From Methanohalophilus sp. RSK (GTDB lineage Archaea > Halobacteriota > Methanosarcinia > Methanosarcinales > Methanosarcinaceae), in the NCBI RefSeq assembly GCF_003722075.1, contig NZ_RDSK01000004.1:1-46317 (forward strand): a stretch of DNA of 46,317 nucleotides, given 5' to 3'. A program made the position numbers and the translations under genes. How positions within the stretch are numbered: the stretch's first letter is position 1; the number at the start of each line of letters is the position of its first letter. The notes under the pieces were generated by a model. That model saw nothing but the letters and a program-made list of their open reading frames with translations. It had not been told where the DNA came from and made no database searches. Shown here one piece after another: positions 43,904-46,089 of this stretch.

Positions 43904-44437
43904 ATGATCATTACCCTAATTGGAATGGCTGGTGTCGGAAAAAGTACCATTGGCAAACTTCTTGCCACCCATTTAGGTTATAGCTTTGTTGATGTGGATG
44001 ACTTGATAAAGCAAAGAATAGGTGGACAGTTACAGGATTATCTTGACGAAAAAGGAGATTCAGCTTTTATTAAAGTTGAAGAGGACGCCATACTAAATTT
44101 GGATTTAAAGGACAAAATGGTGATCGCTACGGGTGGTAGTGCAATCTACTCAGAAGCTGCAATGGAAATCCTTTCTGAAAAATCTATAATAATACTGCTT
44201 GATGATACTTTTCCCAATATAAGAAAAAGGATTTCCCATCCCTAGAAAAGAGGGCTGGTGGGTTTCCGGGAAAAGGGAATTAAGAAATTGTATTTGGAAA
44301 GGCTGCAATTGTACCGGAAATATGCAGATATTGTTGTTGACATCAATGGAATGGCAAACAAAAAGAAAGTTGTAAACAATATTGTGGAAAAGAGTAAAGA
44401 ACTCTATAATTCCACTTTTGACACTTTCAATTTGTGA
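43904..44437 (+). CDS. Shikimate-kinase-like P-loop kinase with an in-frame UAG (candidate pyrrolysine)
   Basis: Read through one TAG at codon 114 (44243-44245), this gene encodes 177 residues, the normal size of AroK-type kinases. Walker A is GMAGVGKST (about 7-15), FVDVDD holds the substrate aspartates, and ATGGSAIYS matches the GG-x motif. After the TAG the frame continues with [26 protein letters not shown] and a helical tail, just as expected for the C-terminal half of the family. No other TAG stop ends a gene in the window. Methanosarcinaceae read UAG as pyrrolysine, so the full protein is plausible. A recent nonsense mutation is the alternative. The ATG at 43904 has GTGAT five bases before it. 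The 3' end overlaps the convergent UPF0210 gene by 11 bases. Confidence 0.7.
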
Positions 44438-45788
44438 GTGCCTGTATTGGCGCCGGGATACGCCCTGCTTTTTTAACAAACTCTTCAGAACTGAATTTGT
44501 GGACAGGCATGACCGGACAGCTTCCAAGCAATCCTCCATACTCAACCATATCTCCTGTCTTTTTGCCCGGTGCAGTAATGATGCGCACTGCTGTTGTTTT
44601 CCTGTTTATCATTCCTACAGCCATTTCATCGGCCATAATTGCCGAAATCGTAGAGGATGGAGTGTCTCCGGGAACTGCAATCATATCCAATCCCACCGAA
44701 CATACAGATGTCATTGCTTCGAGCTTATCCAGTTTCAGTGAACCACGTTTCACGGCTTCTATCATTCCTGCATCCTCACTTACAGGTATAAAAGCCCCAC
44801 TTAGTCCGCCTACAGAAGATGATGCCATTGCACCGCCTTTCTTCACCGCATCATTCAACAATGCAAGAGCAGCTGTGGTTCCGTGGGTGCCACAGCTTTC
44901 CAGCCCCATTGCCTCAAGGATAGCTGCTACACTATCACCAACTTCAGGTGTGGGTGCAAGTGAGAGGTCCACAACTCCAAAATCAGCTTCCAGTCTGCGG
45001 GACACTTCCCTGCCGGTCATCTCTCCCATTCTTGTGATTTTAAAGGCGGTTTTCTTTATACACTCAGCAATTTCCCCCAGGTCAGGATTATTCAGGTCCC
45101 TTATAGCAGAATTCACAACACCGGGACCGCTCACGCCCACATTTATGACACAATCAGCCTCGCCGACTCCGTGAAAAGCACCAGCCATAAAAGGATTATC
45201 TTCCGGGGCGTTTGCAAAAACTACGAGTTTAGCACAGCCAATACCTTCCCTATCCCTGGTAAGGTCTGCAGTTTCTTTAATCACTTTTCCCATAAGCTTC
45301 ACAGCATTCATGTTTATGCCGGCTTTCGTAGTTGCTACATTAACAGAAGAACAAACCTTTTCCGTAACTGCAAGAGCCTCAGGGATTGCATTAATAAGTC
45401 TTCTGTCACCCGCTGTCATCCCTTTATGGACAAGAGCGGTGAAACCACCTATGAAATCAACTCCAATCTCATTGGCTGCTCTGTCAAGAGTTTTTGCAAT
45501 GGAAACTATCTCTTCCTGTGTGTATGTTTCTGCAATTGTGGCAATTGGTGTAACAGATATACGTTTATTGATTATGGGTATGCCATACATTTGTTCGACT
45601 TCGTCTGCAACATCAACCAGTTTGCTGGCGCAACGTGTCATTTTCTCGTGAATGTTGTCATTGAAAGTCTCAATATCAGGATGAACACAATCTCGCAGGT
45701 TGATTCCCATTGTGACAGTTCGTATGTCAAGGTTCATGCTGGAAATCATATGAATGGTTTCCATTATTTCTTCAGGATGAATGAACAT
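44427..45788 (-). CDS. UPF0210 (DUF711/PFL family) protein
   Basis: A 453-residue soluble protein of the UPF0210 family, related to pyruvate formate-lyase-like barrels but lacking a known reaction. Family stretches such as [37 protein letters not shown] and [14 protein letters not shown] are present. It is nearly always next to the ACT-domain gene seen here 22 bases upstream, implying a joint role, perhaps amino-acid sensing. AGAGGTGG precedes the ATG. Stop TGA. Confidence 0.9.
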
Positions 45789-45810
45789 TTATACCACCTC
45801 TTTTGGGAAT

Positions 45811-46089
45811 TCAGATACGGTGCATGAAACGGAATACATCGTCTTTCTGTACCTGGATCTCAACACCAAGTTCATCTCCAGCAGCATTTATTGCATTCTG
45901 GAATGCATCAATGTCAAATCCCTTTTTTTTTGTCTCTGTCAGCATTATCATGGTGAACAAATCTTCCATTATAGTCTGGCTTATATCCACAATGTTCACC
46001 TCGAATTGGGCCAGTATATTTGTTATATGTGCTACTATCCCGACTTTGTCTATTCCAATTACAGTGATAACAAAACGTGTGGATGTCAT
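45811..46089 (-). CDS. ACT-domain regulator (UPF0237 family)
   Basis: A 92-residue protein made of a glycine-cleavage-repressor-like ACT pair: TVIGIDKVGIVAHITNILAQ, then NIVDISQTIMEDLFTMIML. ACT domains bind amino acids. It probably partners the UPF0210 protein that follows in the operon. GAGGAGA precedes the ATG. The promoter must lie in the roughly 100 bases between this ATG and the right end of the insertion element. Stop TGA. Confidence 0.92.
   Translation of the reverse strand: MTSTRFVITVIGIDKVGIVAHITNILAQFEVNIVDISQTIMEDLFTMIMLTETKKKGFDIDAFQNAINAAGDELGVEIQVQKDDVFRFMHRI

Follow-up and report, generated by a model that had tools for sequence, protein, structure and literature searches.

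The window, by which we mean the whole stretch of DNA analysed (46,317 nt), is one entire contig of the archaeon Methanohalophilus sp. RSK, whose genome comprises 1,969,036 bases on 18 contigs. Close to its end lies a shikimate-kinase-like gene interrupted by an in-frame TAG, which raises the question whether the gene is broken at this codon or read through it with pyrrolysine. The original prediction placed the TAG at codon 114 of 177 and the end of the gene at a TGA, and all coordinates were exact when the frame was checked again (Table 1). The TAG is the single in-frame stop before the TGA at codon 178; over the kinase stretch, 13 and 15 stops occur in the two remaining frames of that strand. 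As base composition alone gives 63 codons free of TAA and TGA a chance of about 0.07, the real argument is homology and not the open frame. Pfam SKI (PF01202) matches the read-through protein at residues 10-163, across the TAG (E 3e-34), and the part before the TAG alone at E 3.9e-27. Behind the TAG the remaining 63 residues share 94% identity with the orthologue in the sister genome G006, as do the residues before it, so that the downstream half is the rest of the same gene. The TAG sits inside an otherwise intact kinase gene.

Table 1. Features of the window and of other genes with internal stops or bearing on the kinase (G000, RSK; C, contig; L, locus)
Feature	Coordinates	Strand	Remarks
Shikimate-kinase-like/putative homoserine kinase gene	43904-44437	+	177 codons with TAG as residue; ATG at 43904
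Part before TAG	43904-44242	+	113 residues; N-terminal core with GMAGVGKST, presumably the nucleotide-binding loop
In-frame TAG	44243-44245	+	codon 114; TGG (Trp) in 5 of 5 close orthologues
Part after TAG	44246-44434	+	63 residues; remainder of the lid and C-terminal half; R116, R133 and Y137 conserved
TGA terminator	44435-44437	+	same place in 4 of 5 close orthologues
PRK05313-type protein, which we take to be UPF0210	44427-45788	-	convergent, overlaps 3' end of kinase gene
ACT-domain protein	45811-46089	-	adjoins UPF0210-type gene
comE	G000:C12:72302-72871 (L123:12302-12871)		TAG at C12:72674-72676
TIGR01177-like (THUMP-type) tRNA methyltransferase	G000:C1:71888-72940 (L068)		TAG at codon 254 of 351
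Copper-type P-ATPase	G000:C1:27863-29845 (L066)		CAG-to-TAG at codon 630 of 660
HdrB-like Fe-S/CCG gene	G000:C1:174684-175766		frameshifts and TGA
TPR-like ORF	G000:C9:124773-125090 onward	-	TAG end
Proteins above threonine synthase (thrC) cut-off	G000:C18:78895; C5:33015		
Trm5/Taw2-like methyltransferase of G006	G006:C1:514,771-515,589		single TAG, codon 102
FMN reductase of G006	G006:C1:1,209,521-1,210,141		single TAG, codon 80

The UPF0210-type and ACT genes also adjoin the kinase in two named Methanohalophilus loci (L036, L037). In eight of ten Methanolobus loci (L040-L047) the pair lies directly upstream of the kinase and is co-directional with it, while the remaining two (L038, L039), where the DNA begins at this point, contain a partial UPF0210-type gene and no ACT match. 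The opposite arrangement of the pair in the window (44427-46089) suggests an inversion in one lineage or the other. As a clue to the function of the kinase the neighbouring genes gave none.

Codon 114 in related kinases

A match to the kinase at E 0.001 was obtained in 62 of the 99 genomes searched and an orthologue-grade match (E 2.5e-18 or better, counted by rows) in 50, RSK being included in both numbers. Only in RSK does a TAG lie inside an orthologue-grade match (1 of 50 genomes). All eight Methanohalophilus genomes searched, RSK included, have kept the gene, and the seven others carry it without internal stop, apart from a terminal shift in G007, where a 1-base insertion shortens the ORF by 5 codons. 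The original prediction had proposed an alignment of orthologues at codon 114, and this revealed a sense codon throughout the 29 relatives aligned: TGG in all five close ones (G002, G003, G004, G006, G007), and a variety of residues in the 24 distant ones (S 10, R 5, A 4, G 2, H 1, N 1, T 1). The uniform TGG and the varied distant residues together indicate a single change on the RSK lineage, which, judged by the alignment, is a TGG-to-TAG transition particular to this lineage, at a site that tolerates change.

Relative to the close relatives there is no frameshift after the TAG. Counting the changes private to RSK at positions where the five close relatives agree, we found 2 replacement and 11 silent changes before the TAG, and 3 replacement and 2 silent changes after it (Fisher p 0.099). 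This slight and non-significant tilt would fit a gene that has lost its function, but TAG-free relatives tilt likewise after codon 114 (replacement:silent 5:0 in G004 and 7:0 in G007), so that the counts speak neither for clear decay nor for clear extra constraint. Decay beyond the TAG, which had been named in advance as evidence against decoding, hence does not exceed that in relatives without the TAG. The RNA downstream of the TAG is predicted to fold no better than its shuffled versions (z -0.15, with 81 of 200 shuffles as good), and a PYLIS-like element was dropped as a candidate on these grounds.

Identity of the kinase

The designation as shikimate-kinase-like holds for family and fold. 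With 118.9 bits against a gathering cut-off of 22.1 the protein belongs to SKI (PF01202), and the nearest solved folds of the modelled read-through protein are shikimate kinases. With regard to function the name is less apt. The best NCBIfam match is the homoserine kinase family NF040667 with 153.8 bits over 161 of 177 residues; since the curated cut-off is 197, the kinase is to be called nearest to homoserine kinase and not a member. Five TAG-free homologues score 140.6-153.9 bits, and thus all six proteins scanned are under the cut-off. In addition, RSK encodes a separate GHMP-type archaeal shikimate kinase above cut-off, which makes a role of the TAG-containing kinase in the shikimate pathway unlikely.

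The homoserine kinase types profiled in RSK were NF040667, GHMP-type ThrB and TIGR02535. No GHMP-type ThrB was found above cut-off: the four GHMP proteins of RSK are a mevalonate kinase, an RFAP synthase, the archaeal shikimate kinase and a pantoate-kinase-like protein, the last below the cut-offs of its models. RSK does have a PGAM-type putative homoserine kinase that scores above cut-off (TIGR02535, 571 bits), and the TAG-containing kinase may therefore be dispensable; the activity of the TIGR02535 type is described as uncertain (PMC7311316). From these profiles the TAG-containing kinase is likely a homoserine kinase, perhaps not the sole one of RSK. The small RSK genome also encodes two proteins above the threonine synthase cut-off (Table 1). 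A limited literature search found no paper joining pyrrolysine with homoserine kinase.

The model of the read-through protein has a mean pLDDT of 90.8. Residues 111-120 reach a mean of 71, and only the C-terminal tail block is lower; the lower confidence around the TAG position fits a mobile lid. In an alignment of 32 sequences R116 is at least 90% conserved while R133 and Y137 are invariant, and all three residues lie after the TAG. We take R116 and R133 to correspond to the lid arginine and a substrate arginine of M. tuberculosis shikimate kinase, based on alignments. Lacking these conserved residues, the 113-residue fragment is presumably inactive.

Pyrrolysine machinery and internal stop codons in RSK and its relatives

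An absence of pyl genes would have spoken against pyrrolysine at this site, but the genes are present. A profile search identified pylS in RSK with 370 bits, adjoined by a tRNA-Pyl with anticodon cta (ARAGORN) and followed by ORFs resembling PylB, PylC and PylD, which were named from order and sequence. A degenerate tRNA-Pyl pattern had given no match in the genome; the pattern was at fault, as ARAGORN found the gene. The mttB gene of RSK contains one internal TAG, and pylS was found above cut-off in all seven other Methanohalophilus genomes. The expectation that this member of the Methanosarcinaceae can decode UAG as pyrrolysine agrees with its gene content: tRNA-Pyl, PylS and PylBCD-like proteins are encoded, and the kinase offers an in-frame TAG in a conserved gene with homology on both sides. 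RSK was isolated from the Kebrit Deep and grows on mono-, di- and trimethylamine as well as on methanol; its description lists growth factors as unnecessary, and neither vitamins nor yeast extract nor trypticase stimulated it (PMC6491703). For M. portucalensis, of the same genus, pyrrolysine in MttB is reported from mass spectrometry (PMC4928046).

Termination at TAG seems to occur as well: it is the last codon of the pylB-like gene in RSK and in G006, and in other Methanosarcinaceae the TAG ending this gene is regarded as a genuine stop (PMC2933860). Accordingly, UAG is probably ambiguous in RSK and not wholly reassigned.

We compared internal stops between 759,436 bases of RSK (39% of the genome) and 800,000 bases of G006, with long-stretch colinearity seen for C1 and the window. 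A first tally over C1 and the window (ORFs ≥60 aa, all positions) yielded 6 TAG, 7 TGA and 3 TAA in 225 ORFs of RSK and 5 TAG, 9 TGA and 1 TAA in 227 ORFs of G006, that is, no TAG excess in either genome when unfiltered. Partner ORFs of ≥100 aa without coding filter gave, among the matches listed, at least 74 TAG, at least 126 TGA and at least 66 TAA in RSK, and at least 70 TAG, at least 143 TGA and at least 69 TAA in G006; TAG was not in excess here either, and the tally, swamped by shadow ORFs, was set aside. With a coding filter, and restricted to stops at 15-92% along the ORF, 8 stops were counted in RSK among 511 G006 ORFs (5 TAG, 3 TGA, no TAA) and 8 in G006 among 515 RSK ORFs (2 TAG, 4 TGA, 2 TAA).

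When a Pfam match was required to span the stop, five TAG and no TAA or TGA remained over both genomes. Three of these are from RSK (the kinase, comE at codon 125 and the TIGR01177-like methyltransferase at codon 254) and two from G006 (the Trm5/Taw2-like methyltransferase and the FMN reductase, both open in RSK). From RSK the rows dropped were those of three ORFs lacking a Pfam match (2 TAG, 2 TGA) and that of the HdrB-like gene, whose TGA falls between two domains and is accompanied by frameshifts. From G006 they were 2 TGA in ORFs that no Pfam family matched, along with 2 TGA and 2 TAA situated ahead of the domain. The Trm5/Taw2-like row was kept despite flagged indels, as tblastn aligns all 273 residues with no net gap. 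Given that TAG accounts for about a third of the mutational opportunity, the chance of five TAG out of five is about 0.004, or 0.017 for five out of six if the decayed HdrB-like gene is counted, and for RSK alone p is 0.036 (3 of 3) or 0.11 (3 of 4); as the spanning criterion was chosen after the candidates had been seen, these values are a guide and not a test.

The strongest of these cases is comE (sulfopyruvate decarboxylase beta subunit), with a single TAG at codon 125 of 189. RSK has one strong comE match, the other three being weak (E 2.6e-5 or worse). Among seven relatives from the genus, codon 125 is TTG or TTA in the five close ones and AAG and CAA in the two others, and on the RSK branch the part after the TAG shows 1 silent and no replacement change. 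The ORF preceding comE looks like comD. In Methanosarcina acetivorans, deletion of comDE is reported to result in a true coenzyme M auxotroph (PMC12068725). A TAG in the only strong comE of a strain with growth factors listed as not required is the strongest argument for UAG decoding in RSK. In the methyltransferase, codon 254 is CAG or CAA in all seven other genus genomes, and the RSK-branch changes are within the range of four relatives, G004 being left out as its copy has a frameshift; because of this frameshift the enzyme may be dispensable and is weaker evidence than comE.

Some further genes were noted alongside. The TAG of the copper-type P-ATPase, 30 residues before the end, is outside the 15-92% range and uncounted. 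An ORF named TPR-like by eye ends in TAG in both RSK and G006; its continuation in RSK comprises 117 residues and holds a second TAG, and ORF and continuation together are a possible conserved pyrrolysine protein. The HdrB-like gene (named by eye from Pfam domains), intact in G006, is a real pseudogene in RSK and serves as contrast case with mixed lesions. The citrate synthase gene of M. mahii (G007) has its full length and one TAG, and G002 and G005 keep the gene without a stop; in RSK, G003, G004 and G006 the searches met only C-terminal remnants, and G001 gave no match (loci L164-L169). Judged from these remnants, citrate synthase has been lost within the genus, and the M. mahii gene illustrates that a TAG can stand in a gene lost by sister species.

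Readings of the UAG codon and comparison with known systems

Taken together, the TAG in the kinase is probably a neutrally acquired pyrrolysine codon, decoded efficiently enough to keep the enzyme. A single transition in the line leading to RSK would have turned TGG into TAG at codon 114, a permissive position in the lid. Pyrrolysine made by PylBCD would be loaded on tRNA-Pyl by PylS, and this tRNA would read the kinase UAG in ordinary translation, competing with the release factor; such competition at UAG is thought to occur (PMC9499178), and an introduced amber codon in a M. acetivorans reporter gave 20-30% full-length product according to a review (PMC2933860). Readthrough should yield enough full-length kinase, and products stopping at the UAG would be without the conserved lid and C-terminal residues. 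The same drift may have put the single TAGs into comE and the THUMP-type tRNA methyltransferase; TAGs in other housekeeping genes point to tolerated chance use of pyrrolysine and not to dedicated design. The codon and its newness in RSK, the intact remainder of the gene, the pyl genes and the other TAG genes are observed directly, and from there we infer decoding as well as activity and substrate of the enzyme.

That the TAG is instead a true stop, left by a recent nonsense mutation, with the kinase lost in RSK and phosphohomoserine supplied by the PGAM-type protein, appears unlikely to us. The TIGR02535 homologue above cut-off, the replacement tilt on the RSK branch and the fate of citrate synthase in the genus would all agree with such a loss, yet the kinase bears one lesion only, where the truly decayed HdrB-like gene shows mixed lesions, and seven other genus genomes keep it open but for the terminal shift in G007. 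RSK moreover has the pyl genes, and single TAGs, unlike TAA and TGA, recur inside the domains of other genes, among them the one strong match to comE.

The original prediction had left the choice between a pyrrolysine protein and a kinase made in two lengths. The first part agrees with the pyl set, the in-frame TAG, the sense codon of the orthologues and the lack of excess decay; the second, as a tie to methylamine growth, found no support beyond the general competition at UAG. In the proposed switch, charging of tRNA-Pyl would set short or long kinase and couple threonine or related metabolism to methylamine supply. The general competition between release factor and Pyl-tRNA would give two lengths in some ratio (PMC9499178), but RSK also grows on methanol with growth factors listed as not required (PMC6491703). 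With the TAG in 1 of 50 genomes, at a site tolerating many residues, with a short form devoid of R116, R133 and Y137, and no structured element after the TAG, a regulatory role of this kind is very improbable.

Substitution errors are rare in Illumina/SPAdes consensus sequences. A sequencing or assembly error at a true TGG, one base apart from TAG in a draft assembly, is hardly credible given Illumina MiSeq sequencing and SPAdes assembly (PMC6491703) and in-domain stops that are all TAG in our sample, which random errors would not favour.

Provided that the neutrally acquired codon is read, the central metabolism of RSK includes proteins with pyrrolysine gained by chance, from genes such as the kinase, which automatic annotation would call broken, and counting such TAG genes in sister species is a way to watch a stop codon become a sense codon. 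We tentatively go one step further: UAG may effectively be a sense codon in several core-metabolism genes of RSK (comE, the kinase, probably for threonine, and the tRNA methyltransferase), with pyrrolysine needed even on methanol. If so, neutral drift would have locked in the pyl cassette independently of methylamine use. Loss of pylT, which in M. acetivorans allows methanol growth without apparent defect (PMC2933860), should then harm RSK if its TAG genes, comE in particular, depend on UAG decoding.

As to known systems, the methylamine methyltransferases MtmB, MtbB and MttB, mttB of RSK among them, carry an in-frame TAG that is read by means of the pyl genes, as is probably the case for the kinase. 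However, their codon is conserved and pyrrolysine is catalytic, whereas the kinase has its TAG in one lineage only, newly acquired and at a variable position. A genetic code in which an archaeon reads every TAG as pyrrolysine has reportedly been described (about 2025), and would predict decoding of the kinase UAG. Regarding function, the closest known type is the shikimate-kinase-related homoserine kinase DvMF_0971 of Desulfovibrio, the founding enzyme of its type, which rescued an E. coli thrB mutant (PMC5764234); the RSK kinase resembles it in having NF040667 as best NCBIfam match but differs in scoring below the cut-off of this family. Regarding the codon, Thg1 (tRNA-His guanylyltransferase) of Methanosarcina acetivorans is said to owe its pyrrolysine to neutral evolution (Heinemann et al. 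2009, cited in PMC2933860), and as in the Thg1 type, the sense codon of the relatives is one step away from the TAG of the kinase and the site is non-essential; in Thg1 pyrrolysine was tested by experiment, while it is inferred for the kinase. The citrate synthase of M. mahii likewise belongs to the same genus and to central metabolism and has a single in-frame TAG in an otherwise full-length frame, for which pyrrolysine was already proposed (PMC3017947); it is another gene in another species, with remnants in four members of the genus, in contrast to the kinase kept in all eight. Most likely the RSK kinase joins Thg1 and the M. mahii citrate synthase as an already known kind of case.
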